A stretch of DNA of 64,000 nucleotides from Thraustochytrium sp. TN22. Its lineage: Eukaryota > Sar > Bigyra > Thraustochytrida > Thraustochytriidae. The notes under the pieces were generated by a model. It searched no databases, was not told where the DNA came from, and saw only the letters and a list, made by a program, of their open reading frames with translations. Both the position numbers and the translations under genes were made by a program. Position 1 is the stretch's first letter. The number at the start of each line of letters is the position of its first letter. The stretch is taken from positions 1 through 64,000 of the forward strand of contig JABLUY010000063.1 of assembly GCA_013306675.1 (NCBI GenBank). Reading direction: 5' to 3'. Positions 15,601 through 50,650 of this stretch are shown piece after piece.

Positions 15601-16098
15601 TCGTGTGCGAAGCGTGGCAACCGCACTGCGCACTGGATCCTCCATAACGTGCTCTGTTCGAGGATTGAGCGCGCCGACGACGACGATCTGGACCAGGAGA
15701 TGCGCTCGGCGGCGAAATCCTCCGAGGCTGCCATCCACGCCGAGCACCTGCGCATGCATCGCGTCGTCTGGTGCGCCAAGGTCATGCATATCATCTGCCC
15801 CTGCCTTGTCAAGTTTGACCCCTCGGACAACATTGTGCCCGACGAGGAGACCATGACCGTCGCGGTCACGGACCGCCTTAAGCAGGAGCGCGCCTCGCGC
15901 CACGTTCCCAAGGGCACGCGCGAGAAGTCCGTGCGCCTCATTGTCCCGCCCGAGGATCTCTTCAACTGGGAGCGCCACATGTACCACGACGAGGCCACCG
16001 GCCGCGACATTCCCTACTACTTCAACTCCAAGACGAACCAGTCCTCCTGGCACCGCCCCAAGGTTCGTGACCAAAGCGACCCGCCCGATGAGGTCTAA
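12616..16098 (+). CDS. Type I membrane protein: LamG/cadherin-like ectodomain, TM helix, cytosolic WW domain
   Basis: 1160 residues, no intron needed. The signal peptide is at residues 1-22. A concanavalin/LamG-like region (about 110-310, with DFTIELWVTVS) is followed by repeats resembling cadherin-like or tandem-95 domains with NDAPEA and NDAPEL boundaries. Many N-glycosylation sites are present. One TM helix (about 964-996, IYGIVGGGVLCCIGFCVGLI) leads to a basic cytosolic tail ending in a WW domain (about 1115-1149). Its first Trp is in FNWERH, the aromatic pair in PYYFN and the second Trp in SSWHRP. The architecture suggests a surface adhesion or receptor protein that recruits Pro-rich partners inside the cell. 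No ortholog name is justified. Confidence 0.85.
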   Translation: MMAAKAVVVAVLALAAAAATDAAVATFEPAGRYQSNRVQGDALVIMPLLQADCEVGNFTDAVSDDYLGGMFYASGLDSSTKCPSTTVGLNTFPLSSNGVVFDAAYQATNYPGLMSNGNVSTLGLESTDFTIELWVTVSVPLVSGASYILWEFGEEGPTTVNADTWDFDDYGYRLRYVNTGGGQFLIEYQPFGQTSFGVTTLSSGNTYYITIQVEHDTPSSGNMQWTLTVYTLGSSTASFANSIVAYGSTFSVTTTAKVHVGASPAVQSTANTHRSWPGSVLFFGLHDTALGSTDIASNFAAGLPNSLPVMATTTTTEESLLEDAQSADFLVKVTPLVYDFDEDTFGEDAPTITLVDVDTGTGLLGASVFVDAVLVNNSLVSSETPVDVASNITFAADADKYGEGTILYFGANDGYGAALSSVPVSMAVTGTNDAPEAVSGDFGQDLPTLDYSGYTSQSTYSVITLTARDIDCLDGGASPTTPYLDDSCTSFGFSKKFRLHGYNSDGSVADGPSSPLGRLYTPITPSGSESVCSGDPSGRWLTAGSAYETSVSDYDNVTLTLCFQACLGTTGDNPCPADLQNASTLGDATFTWWVEDLDGEVSDSLNVSTTVTSVLDANVEDVFVVLEDEVSEIQLTGLDNYCIQTGDCAGRTLTFVVTELPPVSQGVLYTDANATDELEVGEETSGLLYFKPAANYANAELWPFCGNGLDDFSKCADEDAGFSDIAALWPCTGPLCDATIAGDQYSTTDFSGDDLGLIDGCTAGADRGCPVVLTYKVLLEVGAESYESVPSTGDRGAVIFVRNVNDAPELNLPFETMTDLKISTYYNISSGTNYVSIDDSVDGDLRFVDVLIQCTDSEGKVSISGMSPSDTFAWLSGSGASASGLTSLSFKSTVPQANEALSRLQYVTTSSGGSDEITITVFDQSRNGDGTGFSVPVGQENAYYAVSKSIALTLVVETNEKSVQLTLPTLAIYGIVGGGVLCCIGFCVGLICAIGSCAKRGNRTAHWILHNVLCSRIERADDDDLDQEMRSAAKSSEAAIHAEHLRMHRVVWCAKVMHIICPCLVKFDPSDNIVPDEETMTVAVTDRLKQERASRHVPKGTREKSVRLIVPPEDLFNWERHMYHDEATGRDIPYYFNSKTNQSSWHRPKVRDQSDPPDEV

Positions 16099-16357
16099 AA
16101 GGCCTCTAGCAAGAGCCCAAGACTGGCGCGATCCTCTTCCCCACTGTCTCACGACGAACGGCACTCGTAGGCCAGGCCATCCACCATTATCGCTTCTGCC
16201 GCCGCCGCCGCTGTTTCGTCACCACCATCTATCATTGTTGTTGTTGTGTCACGAAATCCCTGGAGAATGACGTTGAACTTGTCGGAGCTGCTGCGGCGTG
16301 GCGCGGCCCGGCGCGGCGCTTGCTGCATGATTCGCCGGGTCACCGTTACTGATTACT
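16099..16357. other. Flank between WW-domain gene and IS607 element; possible guide-RNA region
   Basis: Contains the 3' UTR of the plus-strand WW-domain gene. Read on the minus strand it lies just 3' of the Fanzor ORF. In characterised TnpB/Fanzor systems the guide (omega) RNA arises from the 3' end of the ORF and the element end, so some of this stretch may belong to the transposon. A GC-rich imperfectly repeated patch (GGCGCGGCCCGGCGCGGCGC, 16299-16318) could fold. The exact element end cannot be read from one copy. Confidence 0.35.
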
Positions 16358-16373
16358 TGACTAGTCCTAGTCA
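16358..16373 (-). repeat. 7-bp perfect inverted repeat across the Fanzor stop codon
   Basis: TGACTAG (16358-16364) and CTAGTCA (16367-16373) are exact reverse complements around 2 nt. The stop codon of the nuclease (16367-16369 on minus) lies within the right arm. It could be part of the element's end structure or of the guide-RNA scaffold; this role is inferred. Confidence 0.7.
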
Positions 16374-17701
16374 GAGGTTATGCCGTAACTAGCAATGAAT
16401 TGCCCGAAGAGTACTGTCCATTCACCAACGTTTACCATTGACGAGGGACTTATGTAGATGTTGCGCGCACCGTTGATGTCGCGGCCAAGCTGGAGGCCGC
16501 AGCGAGTGCAGTTGTAGATCTCGGCGGATCCGAGATCATCCTTGATGTTGCCGCACCAAGTGCATGTTTTGGATGTGTACTCTTCGGGCACGGCCAGCGT
16601 GGTTCTTGACTGACCGTGGTCCTTGATGAGTCTGTCGCGAAAGCGACAGTGTGAGAGCATTGCGAGAGCTCTCTTGGACTTCTTGTTGATGTGCCTGGAC
16701 TTCAGTACGCTCTTGATGTCGATCGCGCCTACCCGATTTTGAAAGTTGTCGACCAGGAAACGTAAAGTCTTGTCGTGCGTGTCCTTGACTTTGTTCTTGA
16801 TCTTGGCCCAGAGCATCTGTTCCTTGTGTTTGAAACTTGTGACTCGGCGCCTGGTTGCAGGGTCAGCATGCGTCGCGAGTCCCATGGCAGCTGCGCTACG
16901 AGTCGTGTCGATCTTGTTGAGCAGGCCGCCGATGCTGTACTGCTTGGCCGTGCCTTTGGCACGCGACCCCACCGTGCGGAGCAGGGGGTTGATGGCGCCG
17001 GCAAGCTTTGCGTCGTCAGAGTAAAAGGTTTGAAACGTGCGACCTCCTGGGTCAAGCGTGACGTCCTTGAAGGCGGGCCGATTTGCACGGCGAGGCTTCA
17101 TGTAGGGAACAATCATGTACCACCGCCCGGGCTCCTCGTAGATCAGCTTGCAGTCCTTTTTTAGCGCCGGCAACTTGCGCCTGCGCCGCTTGCTTCCTTG
17201 GCGTTTGTAGCGAAGGGGACCAAAGCCCACCTCACGTTCGCCATCAGCGTCCTTGATAGGAAACTTGCGCTGGGGCCAGAGGTTGAAATGGTCATCGGTG
17301 CAACGCATCTTCTTGGAGAAGTGGCACTTCTGCATGGGGATCTCGATGAAGCCGCGCTTCTTCTTGCGGCTCTGGAAGTGCAGCTGGAACCGATGAATGT
17401 TCCTGTTCTTGAGATTGCTCATGCCGGACTTGTGTGCAGAGGCCAAGCGCCGCAAGGTGTCGCCACGTAGGTGGTATGGGATGCTCTCCAGTTCGTCGTC
17501 GAGCGCCCGTTGTGCAGGATCGCTGCGATCCAGCGCGGCACGACTGGGCCCTGCGAAGAATTTCTTCAATGCGGGATAAGTGGGCTTCACTTTGTTGGCG
17601 TTGACATGCTCGACCGCAAGGTTCCAAAGGGCGCGCAGGGCGTGATGAATCTTGGCGAGAATCATGCGTTGCCGCTTTGTCGGCAGTACCCGCACCTTCA
17701 T
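16367..17701 (-). CDS. Fanzor/TnpB-like RNA-guided DNA endonuclease
   Basis: 444 residues from the first in-frame ATG; the frame is open to a TTG at 17755 but no ATG lies there. The N-terminus (MKVRVLPTKRQRMILAKI) resembles the TnpB/OrfB helix-turn-helix start. A basic middle contains a KKKRG segment, then a RuvC-like nuclease with motif I Asp217 (LDPGGRTFQ), and a zinc finger of Cys380/Cys383 and Cys398/Cys401 (TCTWCG, NCTRCG). Motif III is Asp408 (RDINGARN). The canonical motif II Glu is replaced by Asp328 (GAIDIKS), while Glu373/Glu374 (VPEEYTSKTC) stand 45-46 residues later, as in the rearranged active site of eukaryotic Fanzors. The product likely cuts DNA guided by an RNA from the element's 3' end. 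The frame is fully open; activity is not shown. Confidence 0.9.
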   Translation of the reverse strand: MKVRVLPTKRQRMILAKIHHALRALWNLAVEHVNANKVKPTYPALKKFFAGPSRAALDRSDPAQRALDDELESIPYHLRGDTLRRLASAHKSGMSNLKNRNIHRFQLHFQSRKKKRGFIEIPMQKCHFSKKMRCTDDHFNLWPQRKFPIKDADGEREVGFGPLRYKRQGSKRRRRKLPALKKDCKLIYEEPGRWYMIVPYMKPRRANRPAFKDVTLDPGGRTFQTFYSDDAKLAGAINPLLRTVGSRAKGTAKQYSIGGLLNKIDTTRSAAAMGLATHADPATRRRVTSFKHKEQMLWAKIKNKVKDTHDKTLRFLVDNFQNRVGAIDIKSVLKSRHINKKSKRALAMLSHCRFRDRLIKDHGQSRTTLAVPEEYTSKTCTWCGNIKDDLGSAEIYNCTRCGLQLGRDINGARNIYISPSSMVNVGEWTVLFGQFIASYGITSD

Positions 17702-18251
17702 GACTCGCAGGTCGCTTGGCGCGGCGGCTTCGGGCACCGTGCAAGCGGCAGCCAAAGACGGTGATGATGGAGACGAGGTCTTTGACGAGCTCTTCCTCGG
17801 GTCCGCCTACATCGACTTCGCCGTTTGAATGGACAACACGAATGGTGCCACGGTTGGAAGTTCCAATCCAGTCGATGAGATCGAAGGCGGAGCGACACAG
17901 TCGGTGGCGGTAGGCAACCACAATCTCGGCGAGGTCGCCTCGCATTGCGCATTCCAGAATGGAACGAAGGCCGCAACGGTGGTCGTCTTCTTGCGCTTTG
18001 CTCGAGACGCGCGCGTAGCAGATGCGTCGCTTGGGCACCGCTTTCGCTTCGACCGACCCGGAGTTTGCGACGCCGTGGCAGAACAAGACGTCGCGAAGGC
18101 GCAGTCTGCGGTGGCCGGAGGGAGTCCTTGTGGCGCTAATGTCGCCCACATTCGCGTACCTACGGATGGTGTTTGGGTGCACACCGAGGAGCTTGGCGGC
18201 GGCTCCGGTGGAGACGAAAGCGTCCTCGTCGACATGCTGCTGGTCATGCAT
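17292..18251 (-). pseudogene. tnpA: IS607 serine recombinase (TnpA), decayed
   Basis: The N-terminus is a MerR-like HTH (AAKLLGVHPNTIRRYANVGD, TPSGHRRLR). The resolvase start CYARVSSKAQEDD follows, with nucleophile Ser83. About 28 residues that normally follow, including the second half of the active-site motif and the GSGLN..R region, are missing: QEDD runs directly into HRCGLRSIL. The usual DRLCR motif reads HRLCR (His for Asp). The E-helix region DLVSIITVFGCRLHGARS is recognisable. The frame then stays open to 17292 with no resolvase similarity, inside the Fanzor gene. A normal end near residue 185 would give a modest tnpA-tnpB overlap as in prokaryotic IS607. I judge it inactive as a recombinase. 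Confidence 0.78.
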
Positions 18252-18688
18252 TCGAGGCCGCTGCGTTGCGGGTCTGCCGACGCCAACGCGAGGATGTTGA
18301 TGTCAGGTCGCGTCGGCTCGGGAAATGGCTGCGCATCCGTCGCCCTGCATGTGTACGTGAAAACAACCATTTTGGAGCAGCTGACCGCGTGTTCCGCACT
18401 GAGCTCCAAGTCGCTCAGGACCTTTGTCGTGCGATCATTTGCCGACACTGGCATTGGGTTGGTGGCTTCGTTAAGGCAGACGAGTCTACATGAGAGCTCA
18501 GGACCGTGACCTGCTTCCATGACACGCCAAGATGAATCTGTGGCCGCTGTGGCGCGTTTTCATGCACAGGGACGAGGACTGGGTACGACTCAAAGACAAC
18601 CATGGCGCGGGTGAGCTGATCAATGAGCGTAGCTTGATCCATGTCGAGCACGTCGCAGCCTGAGCGGCCCGCCAAGACCTGTCGCCAC
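18252..18688 (-). other. Coding-like remnant between IS607 and XPG-like gene
   Basis: No intact gene. Minus-strand frames here look protein-like in two registers, for example NKWRQVLAGRSGCDVLDMDQ near 18640-18700 and VVFTYTCRATDAQPFPEP near 18320-18370. They could be the frame-shifted C-terminus of the neighbouring nuclease. The 5' end of the IS607 element probably also lies here. Confidence 0.35.
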
Positions 18689-19963
18689 TTATTCACGCAC
18701 CCGCAGAGCAAACCCCTCCGATGGACGAAAAAAGTCGACAGGATCGCCGTGCGAGGATGCCTCCAGGAGGCGAACGGCGCGCGAGTAGATCTGGACGCAG
18801 CCGCGGATGACATCAGCTGCCGCAAGCTGGTCCGGCCCGCCCCTTCCCATCTTGACCCCGGGCGTCACATCGTTGCCTAGCAGCGCGGCAAGTAGGCGGA
18901 AGTCCTCGTGCGTGAACTCCTGCATGCCTGCTTGCTGGAGGACCTCTTCGTTAATCCGATATGCAGTGGGAAGCTGCGAGTTGCCCATGTACTTGAAGCC
19001 CAGCAGCACATTTTCCTTGTGCTTGGAGAGCACGTAGAGATCAGAGTCCAGGCCGACGACGAAGACTTCACTCTCAGGCTCGGCCTCCGCCAACAAGTCA
19101 CGAGTCACCACGACCTGAGCATCCGCTTCGTAGAGTGCTCCGAGGAAGACAACCTCATCAGATGTCCACATCTCGACGGCGCGCCTGTGGAACTCACGCA
19201 GGCTGTGAATGCTCCAGCGAACACCCTGCGCCTTCTGAGGCTCTAAGATACCGGTCAAGAGGCTTCTCACGAGCTCGCTCGCTGCATTCTGCCCTTCTGC
19301 CGTTTGTTCCAGCGCCTTCCATCCTTGTTCCTCGAGCTTCGTCCACAGCACGCGCGCCCACGTGGTCGGTCGAAGCTCCATCGCACGCAGCACCAGGATG
19401 GGCCAGATGTCAGGCGTGAGCTGCTTATCCAGTTCCAGTCGGAGGTCTTCCGGCCAGGTCCAGTCTTCTTCGAACCAGGTCACCTGGAGCCGGCGTTCAT
19501 TCTCAAGATGTCGCCCTGCTGCCTCGAGCCACGCATCCAGGACAGCCACACCACCAGCCTCAACGAATGACCCCTCGAGGAGCTCCCGCAGACGTCCCAC
19601 GCCGCCCCCATCCGGAGCAGCACGGGCTGCACAAGCCATCTCGCGGACTTTGTCAACAACACTGCGAAACCTCGCCGCAGCGACGCTGCGCGTGACGGCC
19701 CTGGCAACAGCCCAACGCCCGAGAGCACGTTGCGAAGTACGAGTTCACGTCGCGGTTTCGTCCGCCTTGGGCGTCCACTTGCTGTTCGCGCCATCCATGA
19801 CGATGTAGAGCTTGCCACAGCACTTCTTCAGCTGCTTGACCACGTCCATCAGACGCCTCACGACAGCAGGAGAGAAGCATCCAGGGCTCTGCCACTGCTC
19901 GCGCACGGCATCCGCGCTCTTGCACGCCGCAAAGGCGGCACCGAAGTCGAAGACGATGCGCAC
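18689..19963 (-). pseudogene. XPG/FEN1-like nuclease gene, broken
   Basis: One reading frame shows both halves of an XPG-type nuclease. The N part has VFDFGAAF and KLYIVMDGANSKW (compare the FEN1 VFDG block). The internal part has ALYEADAQVV (EAEAQ-like metal ligands), VFVVGLDSDLYVL and a GNDVTPGVKMGRGGPD segment like the helix-hairpin-helix entry of FEN1. A single in-frame TGA at 19745-19747 divides them. The reading after the I-domain ends at 18689, while similar-looking coding continues in another register. No ATG or MGI.GL N-terminus is visible. I infer a decayed or misassembled gene; a short intron removing the TGA is possible but no good donor/acceptor pair is evident. Its closeness to the IS607 element may be coincidental. 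Confidence 0.6.
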
Positions 19964-45642: not shown

Positions 45643-46177
45643 CCTCTCTCTGGCAGCGCTCGAGGCTCACGCGAAGTTAACTTTGTTTTGGTGCTCATCG
45701 TTCCACCGCAAGTCCTTGATGCCAACTTGGTCGCCCGGGTGGCACCATTGGCAAGCTTCGTCCCCGGCCATGTCCCGGCCATCGGCGTTACAAAGTCCTT
45801 GGGAACCACGGCTGTGACGGCTCGTCACAGCTTATCATGAGCAGCTAACATAAGATTATCTTGCATACCAGCAAGCGTTGTTGCCGCCATCGACGATCGA
45901 GGACTTTGAGAACGTTAGGCCAACCATGGACGGGCATGAACGGTGAAAGAAACCCTGGCCACTGGCACTCAGGCTGGCAGGCCTGGCCAGAGTGACTCGG
46001 ATGAGCGAGCAAACGACCAACAGCGCTGGCACTTCAACTCGCGTGAAGCGCGAGCGGAAGCGGCGGCGCCCCACGGCGGTACCACGGCGACGCCACGGCG
46101 GTCCCGCCGGCAGGGCGGCGGCGTGTGGTGCGGTGGGCAGCCGCCATCATCAGGGCTTGGGACACGAGTTCAACGCC
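45643..46177. other. Intergenic spacer
   Basis: No gene seen. The GT92-like frame is open back to 45992 through an Arg-rich segment that could be a longer cytosolic N-terminus, but ATG 46178 matches the paralogue better. Confidence 0.45.
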
Positions 46178-47893
46178 ATGGCAACGCTCGTCTCCCGCTG
46201 GGCACCACCACCGCGGGCGCGAGGCGGCTACAAGCTGGCGGGCGCCCTGATCGCGACGCTCGCAGCGCTGGGCGGGACGCTGCTGTGGCGCGAGATGGGT
46301 CTTGTCGCCGGCCTGCGTCTTGGGAACGCGTTGGACCTGGAGGGCTCAACCAAACAAGACGGCGTCCAGCGCGTCCAGAACGAGATGGAGCCCCATGCTC
46401 AAGATCTAGCATGCTGGACGCCGCGACGTGAACGCCTAGACAAGGATGGATTTGTACGAGCGGGCTGGCTCCCGGACCTAGACGTCATCTTGCTTGAAAT
46501 GATGTGGCTCAATGAAACGACACTCTACGTGCTGGGCTTCGACCCCGCGCTGGTACGAGTCGATCGCAAGACCGGCAAGATCATCCCATGGGATAAGAAG
46601 CATGACAAGGAGCTCCCCATCACGCGCAAAAAAGAAGTGGAGGACGCGCCCGCCGCCGACTTCGAGGTGGGCGCGATCGCAGATATTGAAGACTACGTCC
46701 AGAGCTTCTTCTTGCCCGGCCCAGCAACCTGTCCGCGATTGAAGTGCTCTCCTGTCCCGGCCAACGTCGGGCACGGCAACGGGCCAACACGGAGACTGCT
46801 CTGTCACGTGGCGCCTGGCGCCTCTCTGCAGCGAGCCGCCGAGACGACAGGCTCTCGCCGGCGATTGCAAGGCCAAGGCAAGAACGCGCCGTCCGAGCCA
46901 CCCGGAGCGCCACGCTCGCTTTTGCCTCCTGCACACGTTCGCGCGCTGCGGACGTCGATATGGAAGCACTCCCTGAGGCGCGTGCGGCCGGAGCGACCCA
47001 TGGCGCCTGGCCCAAGGCTGTCGGTGGTAAACCCGGTCCACAACTACAACGTGCACGCGAGGGAGCTTGTGAACCACATGTACAAGATCGAAGTGGCGCA
47101 CCTGTACCTGGGCATCTGCGAGGATGAGGACAGTGAGACCTTTGTCAAGTACCTAGATGCCCTGCGGGACTACGTGGACTCCGGCTTCGTCTCGCTCATC
47201 CCCATTGGCAAGCTTGCGGTTCCAGACGCCAGATTTCGACAGAGGGACTTTTCGACCGTAAGCACGTGCCAAGCCATCGTGAACCAGCTGGGGCTGTACG
47301 ATGCCAAATGGCAGGGCGACGACCTCATCTTCGTGTCTGACCTGGACGAGATGCTCGTTCCCATGACCGACGACATCCGTCTTCCGGTGGCATTGGAGCG
47401 TGCCCTCTCGCTCGTGCCGTACGCGCTCGAGGACCTGTGCTATTTGTCGATACAGCAAGATCAGGCAGTGCGGCATCCGGACCGCAAGAGTGACACCACC
47501 CCCGCGGAGGAGGGCAATCTGGCCTACCGTTTCCCGAATCGGTGCGCGTGCAGCCGCCTTGAGCCCAAGGACCGCGGAACGGATACATATGGCGATGCGT
47601 GCGGGGCCCAGACGTACATGAAGTCGATCGCCAATGTGCGCACGACCTTCTTTGCGGGTGTGCATTGGCATGGAGCTTGTACAGCGCGCAACAACTACGC
47701 GTGGAGTCTCAGACATGCCAAGAACAGTCTTGACAACCCGCCGATTCAGTACTGGCTCGATCAGGACGTTTTGCGCGCTCTTCACTTCCCCAACCTCTGG
47801 TCCATCCGAGTTGGCCTGACCTGCGGCGCCGGTCGCTCAAATCCACGCATGATACCTGCGGAGTATACCACGAACAAGTTCACCGACGCTTGA
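46178..47893 (+). CDS. GT92-like type II membrane glycosyltransferase, copy 1
   Basis: 571 residues. A short cytosolic N-terminus, one signal-anchor helix (about 18-36, KLAGALIATLAALGGTLL) and a lumenal domain indicate a Golgi or ER type II enzyme. The catalytic-like region starts at LSVVNPVHNYNVHARELVNH and continues MYKIEVAHLYLGIC, with a DxD-type motif in DDLIFVSDLDEMLVP. This fits the GT92 (DUF23) pattern of 'H...Y..D.DE'. Paired Cys residues (CACSR, GDACG, HGACT) probably stabilise the fold. Donor and acceptor are unknown. Nearly colinear with the next gene, so they are tandem duplicates; the stem region differs most. Confidence 0.78.
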   Translation: MATLVSRWAPPPRARGGYKLAGALIATLAALGGTLLWREMGLVAGLRLGNALDLEGSTKQDGVQRVQNEMEPHAQDLACWTPRRERLDKDGFVRAGWLPDLDVILLEMMWLNETTLYVLGFDPALVRVDRKTGKIIPWDKKHDKELPITRKKEVEDAPAADFEVGAIADIEDYVQSFFLPGPATCPRLKCSPVPANVGHGNGPTRRLLCHVAPGASLQRAAETTGSRRRLQGQGKNAPSEPPGAPRSLLPPAHVRALRTSIWKHSLRRVRPERPMAPGPRLSVVNPVHNYNVHARELVNHMYKIEVAHLYLGICEDEDSETFVKYLDALRDYVDSGFVSLIPIGKLAVPDARFRQRDFSTVSTCQAIVNQLGLYDAKWQGDDLIFVSDLDEMLVPMTDDIRLPVALERALSLVPYALEDLCYLSIQQDQAVRHPDRKSDTTPAEEGNLAYRFPNRCACSRLEPKDRGTDTYGDACGAQTYMKSIANVRTTFFAGVHWHGACTARNNYAWSLRHAKNSLDNPPIQYWLDQDVLRALHFPNLWSIRVGLTCGAGRSNPRMIPAEYTTNKFTDA

Positions 47894-48838
47894 GTGCGAG
47901 CGCGGCCTGCGCTTGCGACTGGCTACCGGGGTCGTTCAAGGCGCCTGCCTGTCTGCGCTGCCTGTCGGGCTCGTGGAAAGCTTTTCGCGCGCGAGGCTTA
48001 GCCCGCGGCCTCTCCCGATCTCCGTAGTGGTAGTAGTATACTATAGCTCGAGCGTCCACCGGTCCGAGTCCACCTCTTGTCTTTGTCGAGCGTCCGAGAC
48101 CTTGTGCACAGCCTCTCAAGACCGCCGCTTCGCCCATCAAGCGGACGGCGCCGGGACCTGGACCATGTCCTCACCGCCAGGGAGCGCGTGCTCCACTGGC
48201 AGACCTCGGCCAGGCAACCAGGCAGCCAGCCTGGGAGATCTTTGCGTGGCCAAAGAAGCCCTGGGCCATTGTACCAGTACCGAGTCACCCCCCGCGGCGC
48301 GTACCACCACTGGCACCGCCGTACCGACGGTACCGTACCTTGCGTGACTCGAAGTCGGGCCCAAACTCGGACTCGAGTCGTACTGGTACTAGTAGCACAC
48401 GCGCACGGGGGCAATTCAGCACGCGCACATGAACCGAATGACAAAGAGAGCGGGCAGAGCGGCCTGCCCGGGCCAGAGATGAATGAGCTCGACAATGAAT
48501 GAGCTCGACAAGGTATGAGCTCGACAATGAATGAGCTTGACAATGACACCCACTGTGAAGAGTGAACGCGCACGAGCTGAGCTGGCCGGCCCGGGCCTTC
48601 GAGAGTCTCGCATTGTACGCACTGCAGTGATGACTGCACGCGCCTCGGTCCCCGTGGCGCGGCCGAGCCCGTGCCCGCCCCTCACCCTCGAGCTCGCGCT
48701 CGCACAGGCCGGCAAAGCGGGGGCGTGCAGCGGGGACAGCGCGGCGCGCGGCGGGGCGCGGCGGCGCGCGGCGGCTGGCCGGCGGCGCGGCGCTCGCGGC
48801 GGCGGCGGCGCGCTGGCCTCGGCCTCGGCAGGCTCAGG
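47894..48838. other. Spacer between GT92-like paralogues
   Basis: No gene seen. Contains four tandem 16-bp units at 48483-48546. Confidence 0.5.
48483..48546. repeat. Four tandem 16-bp units
   Basis: Unit ATGAGCTCGACAATGA repeated four times (48483, 48499, 48515, 48531) with one to three substitutions. It includes the SacI-like core GAGCTC in three units. Confidence 0.92.
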
Positions 48839-50650
48839 ATGGCCGTCAAGGTGGCGCCGTGGAGCACGTCGACGGGCACGGGGAGCTTGGAAGCGACGGG
48901 CGCGCGCTCAACGCGACGCGCGCAGACGCAGCGTGGCTTCAAGCTGGCCAAGTGCATGATTGTGGCCATGCTGACGCTCGCGGCGCTCGGCGGCACGCTG
49001 CTGCGGCACGAGATGAACCTGCTGAGCACGTCCGACCAGCAGGGCGAGGAGGCCTCCGGGTACATCAGCGTGCCCGTACAGCACGCGTTTCAGCTCGCGC
49101 AGGAAGAGACAGAGCCGCCCTCGCAGGGGTGCTGGACGCCGCGACGAGAGCGCCTTGACGAAAATGGCTTCGTGCGAGCGGGCTGGCTCCCGGACCTCGA
49201 CATCATCCTGCTCGAGATGATGTGGCTCAACGAAACGACACTCTACGCGCTGGGCTTCGATACCGCACTGGCACGAGTCGATCGCAAGACCGGCAAACTT
49301 GTCCCATGGAGCACGGAGCTGGGCACGGTGGCCCCGTACAAGAGTCGACAGGCGAAGGCGGAAGCGAAGGACTTCCCCGCCGACTTCGATGTGGGTGTTC
49401 TTACCTCCCTCGACGACTATGTGAGGAGCTTCTTCATGCCCGGCCCTGCTAGCTGTCCACGACTGCAGTGCTTTGAAGTCCCCAGCAATACCGGGCATGG
49501 CGCAAGCGTGATGCGAAAACTGCTCTGCCACGTAACAACCCATCGGGCCGACCATCGGAAAAGCTCGCGGCGCAAGCACCAGCTGGGCGGGCCGGCCCCA
49601 AGAGTGCCGCCGTCTCTCCTGCCTCCCGCAAATGTTCGCGCGCTGCGGACGTCGATATGGAAGCACTCGCAGAGGCGTGTGCGGCCAGAACGACCCATGG
49701 CGCCCGGCCCGAAACTCTCAGTGGTGAACCCGGTCCACAACTACAACCTGCACACAAGGGAGCTCGTGGACCACATGTACAAGATCGAAGTGGCGCACCT
49801 ATACTTGGGCATTTGTGAAGACGAGGGTAGCGAGACCTTTGTCCAGTACATGGACGACCTGCGGGACTACGTGGACCTCGGCTTCGTCTCACTCATCCCC
49901 ATCGGCAAACTTGCGGTTCCAGACGCCAGATTTCGACAGACGGACTTTCCGACCGTATACGCGTGCCAAGCCATCGTGAACCAGCTAGGGCTGTACGATG
50001 CCAAGTGGCAGGGCGACGACCTCATCTTCGTGTCAGACCTGGACGAGATGCTCGTGCCCATGATCGACGACATTCGTCTTCCGGTAGCATTGGACCGTGC
50101 CCTCTCGCTCATGCCGTACGCGCTCGAGGACCTGTGCTATTTGTCGATACAGAACGATCAGGCCGTGCGGCATCCGGACCGCAAGAGTGACACCACCCCC
50201 GCGGAGAAAGGCAACCTGGCGTACCGTTTCCCGAATCGGTGTCAGTGCACCCGCACTGAGCCCGAGGACCGCGAGACTGATACAGTTGGCGATGCGTGCG
50301 GGTCCCAGACGTACATGAAGTCGATCGCCAACGTGCGGACCACCTTCTTTGCGGGTGTACACTGGCATGGAGCTTGTACGGCGCGCAACAACTACGCATG
50401 GAGCCTCGGGCGCGGCAAGAATCGCCTCGACGACCCGCCAATCCACTACTGGCTCGACCCAGACATCGTGCGTGCTCTTCACTTCGTCAACCTCTGGTCC
50501 ATCCGAGTCGGCCTGACCTGCAGACTGGGAAAGGACCCGCAGTTTGTTCCAGCGGAGTTTGCCACAAGCAAGTTTACCAAGGTTCAAGCGACGCCCGCAG
50601 ATTCCTCAGGCCTTGGCGGGCCTGCGCCTGCCAGCATTCTTCAGAAGTAA
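48839..50650 (+). CDS. GT92-like type II membrane glycosyltransferase, copy 2
   Basis: 603 residues, paralogue of the gene at 46178 with long stretches of near-identical DNA in the lumenal half. Signal anchor at about 37-56 (KCMIVAMLTLAALGGTLL). Shared motifs: CWTPRRERLDENGFVRAGWL, ILLEMMWLNETTLY, VHNYNLHTRELVDHMYKIE, DDLIFVSDLDEMLVP and GVHWHGACTARNNYAW. It differs in a shorter stem and has an extra about 20-residue Ala/Pro/Ser tail. The high conservation of the DxD block suggests both are active. Its stop is only 89 bp from that of the convergent SET-domain gene. Confidence 0.78.
   Translation: MAVKVAPWSTSTGTGSLEATGARSTRRAQTQRGFKLAKCMIVAMLTLAALGGTLLRHEMNLLSTSDQQGEEASGYISVPVQHAFQLAQEETEPPSQGCWTPRRERLDENGFVRAGWLPDLDIILLEMMWLNETTLYALGFDTALARVDRKTGKLVPWSTELGTVAPYKSRQAKAEAKDFPADFDVGVLTSLDDYVRSFFMPGPASCPRLQCFEVPSNTGHGASVMRKLLCHVTTHRADHRKSSRRKHQLGGPAPRVPPSLLPPANVRALRTSIWKHSQRRVRPERPMAPGPKLSVVNPVHNYNLHTRELVDHMYKIEVAHLYLGICEDEGSETFVQYMDDLRDYVDLGFVSLIPIGKLAVPDARFRQTDFPTVYACQAIVNQLGLYDAKWQGDDLIFVSDLDEMLVPMIDDIRLPVALDRALSLMPYALEDLCYLSIQNDQAVRHPDRKSDTTPAEKGNLAYRFPNRCQCTRTEPEDRETDTVGDACGSQTYMKSIANVRTTFFAGVHWHGACTARNNYAWSLGRGKNRLDDPPIHYWLDPDIVRALHFVNLWSIRVGLTCRLGKDPQFVPAEFATSKFTKVQATPADSSGLGGPAPASILQK

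Follow-up and report, generated by a model that had tools for sequence, protein, structure and literature searches.

Two overlapping genes on the minus strand make up the locus described here, an IS607-type transposase gene (TnpA) and a gene for a TnpB-like nuclease. An earlier note on this DNA had described, without giving a strand, a MerR-HTH/serine recombinase gene followed by an overlapping TnpB-like gene, and Pfam and NCBIfam find both in the window, by which we mean the whole 64-kb stretch of DNA analysed. The interval proposed for them, 16358-18251, covers both genes, although it starts 9 nt beyond the nuclease stop codon. The genes are placed as follows:

17662 to 18251, minus strand: probably defective IS607-type TnpA, combining a MerR-type helix-turn-helix with a serine recombinase catalytic domain; from Pfam, NCBIfam and alignments
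16367 to 17701, minus strand: ORF of the putative Fanzor2 nuclease, 444 aa, with DPG and a displaced Glu in RuvC and a Cys4 finger

The TnpA frame begins at an ATG at 18251 and stays open to 17292 (319 aa), with recombinase homology stopping near 17710, and the nuclease runs from its first ATG at 17701 to a stop codon at 16367-16369 (the ORF listing starts at a TTG at 17755). The two ORFs overlap in different frames, an arrangement described as common for orfA and orfB of IS607 (PMC6188088). TnpA matches MerR (1.8e-08) and Resolvase (3.7e-08) in Pfam and the NCBIfam IS607 transposase model NF033518 (3.4e-29, at 101.7 bits below the curated cut-off of 110), and it aligns with IS607 TnpAs at 35-48% identity. 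The nuclease is recognised as TnpB-type by Cas12f1-like_TNB in Pfam (1.7e-13) and by guided_TnpB in NCBIfam (3.2e-25, at 89.2 bits below the curated cut-off of 100). Its frame is indeed fully open over 444 codons, and we rejected chance as the reason, given that 500 dinucleotide shuffles of the gene carried a mean of 10.47 stops and left a longest open run of 293 codons. The element is present in one copy within the window. Active IS607 transposons end at GG dinucleotides, without TIR or TSD; here, repeats between the presumed end regions were no better than in shuffles. Rfam at gathering thresholds gave zero matches in the window, and a search for tRNA genes with the bacterial code found none.

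The surroundings are plainly eukaryotic, as had been claimed. Pfam identifies among the neighbours a cullin with a neddylation (Nedd8) domain, a protein-only RNase P (PRORP), a KDEL receptor and an SNase/Tudor protein, and the gene adjacent to TnpA is interrupted by an intron:

18689 to 19963, minus strand: adjacent host gene, not counted in the element, two frame pieces joined by an 87-nt GT-AG intron at 19748-19662

This gene ends 438 nt from TnpA; its spliced product has no match in Pfam or the PDB, and its EADAQ...GLDSDLYVL stretch resembles what we take to be an XPG-I nuclease motif. The window contains zero Ns. The GC content of the element is 57.9%, against 65.5% for the window, and third-position GC is 0.72 in the nuclease gene and 0.69 in TnpA, with ten host ORFs or parts of ORFs spanning 0.69-0.91. 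Elsewhere in the window, two adjacent plus-strand ORFs (45992-47893 and 48671-50650, the latter with no Pfam match) share long near-identical stretches (SVVNPVHNYN...) and are probably paralogues, and positions 408-529 hold a perfect 59-nt tandem duplication in 2.1 copies.

Understanding what kind of nuclease the element encodes depends on its motifs and fold. The RuvC and Cys4 motifs noted earlier are in place, together with a basic patch:

17051 to 17053, minus strand: codon of RuvC1 Asp217 (DPG), computed from the residue number
16583 to 16585, minus strand: codon of the displaced (alternative) RuvC2 Glu373, six residues before the Cys4 finger
16478 to 16480, minus strand: codon of RuvC3 Asp408 (RDINGARN)
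17174 to 17191, minus strand: KRRRRK basic patch, residues 171-176, NLS-like

The DPG stands at residue 217, the Glu at 373, the first finger cysteine at 380 and the RD at 408, the finger and its continuation reading CTWC...CTRC...GRD. The protein thus carries the pattern DPG...ExxxxxxCxxC...CxxC...D, which we wrote after the first RegEx given in PMC10711439; in that paper (Yoon et al. 2023, PMC10711439), the fingerprint of Fanzors combines a RuvC1 DPG with a Glu placed six residues ahead of the zinc finger. The canonical Glu position is occupied by a Lys (IDIKS), and in our alignment the same is true of the Mimivirus protein L79. Against PDB sequences, L79 (9b0l) came first both with phmmer (2.3e-24) and with a profile of alignment A4 (9.2e-61); A4 (30 rows) and A6 (14 rows) consist of hand-picked rows. 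An AlphaFold2 model built on A4 (mean pLDDT 73.6, pTM 0.61) has as its first Foldseek match 9b0l, the Acanthamoeba polyphaga mimivirus Fanzor2 (E 2.6e-17), followed by ISFba1 TnpB, ISDra2 TnpB and Cas12f, with GtFz1 as a weak match (1.1e-03). The TM-scores are modest (0.43 for 9b0l), so that the placement of domains in the model is uncertain. The basic patch is the sole stretch of six K/R in six among 146 homologues (the window protein included), 10 of which have at least five consecutive K/R, again counting the window; it borders a loop modelled with low confidence (pLDDT <50 at residues 155-173) and may serve as a nuclear localisation signal.

These features place the protein among known systems. 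It shares with the Mimivirus Fanzor2 the DPG, the displaced Glu, the Cys4 finger and the Lys at the canonical Glu position, while identity in the fold alignment is 22%, L79 has some 135 extra N-terminal residues, and the TnpA in the window is damaged. The Mimivirus Fanzor2 elements are described as IS607-like with a serine recombinase (PMC3627910). The pro-Fanzor TnpBs of IS607 elements, mostly cyanobacterial, have the same RuvC fingerprint and the same TnpA family but are prokaryotic (PMC10711439). Canonical TnpBs of IS200/605 and IS607 elements (ISDra2, ISFba1) and Cas12f agree with the nuclease in overall fold, but typically have D-hydrophobic-G, with the canonical Glu some 50 residues ahead of the finger. 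Fanzor1 proteins such as SpuFz1 and GtFz1, like the window protein, combine DPG and displaced Glu with a eukaryotic or viral host, whereas they are longer and reside in non-IS607 transposons, according to PMC10711439. The sequence evidence therefore supports the proposal that a eukaryote here carries a Fanzor2 within an IS607-type element: DPG and displaced Glu are in place, and the Mimivirus Fanzor2 leads the PDB matches in sequence and fold alike. By analogy with the Fanzor1 SpuFz1 (PMC10432273), the protein is probably an RNA-guided DNA endonuclease. The view that such nucleases are known from few sequenced hosts is outdated: Fanzors have been reported from many eukaryotes and large viruses (PMC3627910, PMC10432273), and descriptions of Fanzor2s within IS607-like elements, eukaryotic and viral, go back to 2013 (PMC3627910). 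In the literature searched, with most subscription papers outside its scope, nothing was recognised as this locus.

Where the nuclease came from is an aspect on which tree and searches bear. The tree drew on 114 rows left after dropping 11 named loci, 13 motif-less or short ones and exact duplicates, reduced to 68 RuvC-region rows after removing those at least 80% identical; the only published Fanzor2 in it is L79, a partial sequence. The maximum-likelihood tree splits 59 rows from nine (support 100/98), nearly all of the 59 having DPG and the nine showing D-other-G motifs at RuvC1, some with a displaced Glu. The window protein falls among the 59, flanked by L79 and the viral contig L007, on long branches and outside a 56-row set that holds all bacterial-genome rows and all DPG-type prokaryotic rows, at a fork (89/90) that we draw as open. 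AU tests reject none of three placements, with L79 and L007 (p 0.241), with L79 (p 0.321) or with the cyanobacterial-type rows (p 0.199); with these results and the long branches, the position is a weak one. The p of 0.39 for a placement with the nine rows is uninformative, since all that changes is which of two basal long branches comes first. The tree with IS607-associated homologues called for earlier places the protein outside the prokaryotic DPG set, including the pro-Fanzors, but not significantly so.

Could the nuclease instead be the TnpB of a bacterial IS607 element, either a contaminant or acquired from a bacterium very recently? Cyanobacterial pro-Fanzors do share its fingerprint, and the AU test leaves a cyanobacterial grouping standing. 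Against this count the spliceosomal-type intron in the adjacent gene, whose end lies 438 nt from TnpA, the eukaryotic genes on a contig without N, the position of the protein in the tree and the distance of its bacterial matches. In 386 genomes of the phylum of locus L061, 105 had matches at E <=0.001, the best by E-value reaching 38% identity over the RuvC half (some shorter ones up to 47%), and near-full-length matches among the 80 loci kept of 253 did not exceed 28%. We judge a bacterial source highly improbable, contamination being disfavoured by the eukaryotic neighbours, the adjacent intron and the distant bacterial matches alike.

Two further observations concern the relatives themselves. 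Many TnpBs on bacterial and viral contigs have DPG and displaced Glu without the Cys4 finger, with a SWTGEI-like sequence instead (loci L056, L059, L060, L061, L077, L084, L092, L101, L102, L104, L114 and others), on contigs classified not only as Cyanobacteriota but also as Chloroflexota, Bacteroidota, Synergistota, Poribacteria or Pseudomonadota; since many of these contigs are MAGs, binning errors are possible. Pro-Fanzors are exclusively cyanobacterial according to the discussion of PMC10711439. In Microcoleus phage My-WqHQDG (L003, 1059-2744), one annotated 561-aa hypothetical protein consists of a wrong frame over an IS607 TnpA ORF (1100-1639), followed by a pro-Fanzor-type TnpB.

Delivery by, or within, an integrated giant-virus segment is another conceivable origin. 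The Mimivirus Fanzor2 is the best PDB match, and L007, a viral contig of 21% GC, lies near the window protein in the tree and is, by inference, probably from a giant virus; four ORFs of L007 and the overlapping locus L164 gave in Pfam DUF2264 for one and ResIII/SNF2 for another, and three of their ORFs had no match in PHROG. On the other hand, the immediate neighbours and GC are host-like, and Pfam recognised no giant-virus gene in the 10 flanking ORFs, which span part of the window. Pattern searches of viral contigs with the nuclease alone or TnpA alone returned no close relatives, the L79 stretch had no match there, and a search with alignment A3 found relatives in viral contigs as well as genome contigs. 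On balance, we regard a viral route as improbable.

The other gene of the element tells a different story from the nuclease, because the transposase is damaged. TnpA matches occurred in 120 of 167 loci, of which 94 with both genes of usable length were compared with the window, redundant copies included. The segment between the ...QxDD and RKG motifs, with a consensus of about LxRQVxYMxSxYPxAEIIxDIGSGLNFK, comprises at least 26 residues (median 27) in all 94 of these TnpAs, which come from bacterial and viral contigs, and zero in the window:

17979 to 17984, minus strand: point between ...QEDD and HRCGL... at which TnpA lacks a core segment of about 27 residues, from the alignment

The near-invariant Asp of the DRL motif, present in 93 of the 95 rows (one has Gly), is His in the window. 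From work on resolvases, we take this Asp and another in the missing segment to belong to the serine recombinase active site. In an AlphaFold2 model of the window TnpA (mean pLDDT 68.7, pTM 0.41), residues 79-95 form neither helix nor strand; the catalytic core of IS607 is described as a four-stranded sheet with four helices (PMC4058570). The active-site Ser (ARVSS), the HTH and the open frame are all kept, the loss being in frame and without a stop codon. By comparison of sequences, then, the TnpA is very probably defective through loss of the core segment and replacement of Asp by His. As TnpA looks inactive, the description of the locus as a transposon carrying a nuclease overstates its mobility, while that of an IS607-type element with a Fanzor holds.

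With the nuclease preserved and the transposase damaged, the element is in an unusual state, which could be read as that of a decaying relic whose TnpA broke first and whose nuclease has stayed open for lack of time, neither protein being active. Conservation fits such decay: TnpA keeps 33 of 53 well-conserved positions, and the nuclease 45 of the 71 that are at least 80% conserved among the 52 other rows, each the third lowest of 53 rows. This divergence means that the nuclease, too, may be drifting. Smaller conserved shares of TnpA are found at L059 (27/49) and L033 (30/50), neither of which lacks the segment. The single copy in the window and a guide-RNA-like signal missing from the relatives' usual place, described below, also speak for decay, whereas 444 open codons where shuffles carry about ten stops, the retention of three RuvC acids and four finger cysteines, and a structured 3' region speak against it. 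We consider inactivity of both proteins doubtful, while giving it real weight.

The structured region lies in the 3' end of the nuclease ORF, where an inverted repeat and folding energies outline a candidate scaffold:

16380 to 16599, minus strand: candidate reRNA/omega-RNA scaffold region in the 3' end of the nuclease ORF, from folding z
16577 to 16590, minus strand: 5' arm of a 14-nt perfect inverted repeat (candidate guide-RNA scaffold stem)
16401 to 16414, minus strand: 3' arm of the same repeat (candidate guide-RNA scaffold stem)

A Fanzor2 would be expected to have an reRNA with a pseudoknot at the 3' end. Among 19 inverted 14-mer pairs spanning at most 400 nt in the 64 kb, this repeat is the only one not made purely of G+C. 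The segment 16300-16600 folds at -116.1 kcal/mol (z -4.10; none of 100 shuffles as good), and of 150 sliding windows over 15900-19079 on both strands, with a lowest z of -4.48, the five lowest all fall within 16380-16759, the minus strand accounting for four. Positions 16350-16480, which miss one repeat arm, are not unusual (z -0.18). For comparison we hand-picked 38 loci, three of them without 3' flank, and scored 35 relatives, in which the strongest mean signal spans the stop codon (z -3.07 at -160..+40, -2.32 at -80..+120). At the same two positions the window gives only -0.5 and -0.9, its lowest values being -3.8 at -320 and -3.1 at -400; L007, the nearest viral row, has no strong signal either (lowest z -1.9). 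Because the window departs in this way from the pattern of its relatives, the structure remains a candidate guide-RNA scaffold, placed further upstream than in most of them, and it may belong to the coding sequence alone. Our confidence in the explanation preferred below is lowered by this comparison.

Taken together, we think it likely that the locus is an IS607-family Fanzor2 element in the genome of a GC-rich microbial eukaryote with introns, immobile or dependent on help in trans, with a probably functional RNA-guided nuclease. In such an element, the nuclease would be made and enter the nucleus through the KRRRRK patch, bind an RNA matured from the 3' part of the nuclease transcript (with 16380-16599 as candidate scaffold), take its guide from the sequence downstream of that scaffold, and cut matching DNA next to a short TAM. 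Cutting of this kind probably serves, in intact relatives, to put the element back into emptied sites through homologous repair. Here TnpA is probably unable to excise or insert the element, so that this copy would be stuck or dependent on a TnpA encoded by a second one; the nuclease, for its part, may still be active.

A variant of this state is domestication, in which the host keeps the nuclease for a role in, for example, defence or holding related transposons in check, perhaps along with TnpA as a non-catalytic DNA-binding protein, its HTH being intact and its frame open. The inactive-looking TnpA beside an intact nuclease, the in-frame loss, the NLS-like patch and the third-position GC of the nuclease gene, at the low end of the range of neighbouring host ORFs, all point in this direction; immobile copies, however, also arise through simple decay, and we hold domestication to be unlikely. 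It is likewise unlikely that the eukaryote kept both Fanzor2 and guide-RNA scaffold after TnpA had lost catalysis, as a domesticated or trans-acting locus with TnpA possibly a DNA-binding regulator. Immobile unless helped in trans, the copy would be either a relic whose nuclease has not yet broken or a locus whose nuclease is kept for its own sake, the evidence fitting both.

TnpB and Cas12 have eukaryotic relatives in the Fanzors, whose role for their hosts is, to our knowledge, not known. A compact Fanzor2 of 444 aa, with a scaffold candidate and a dead-looking transposase, would offer a direct way to study what a Fanzor does once helping its transposon is no longer possible. If it is not domesticated, the locus still adds one more compact and divergent member to the Fanzor2 class, from a protist rich in GC.
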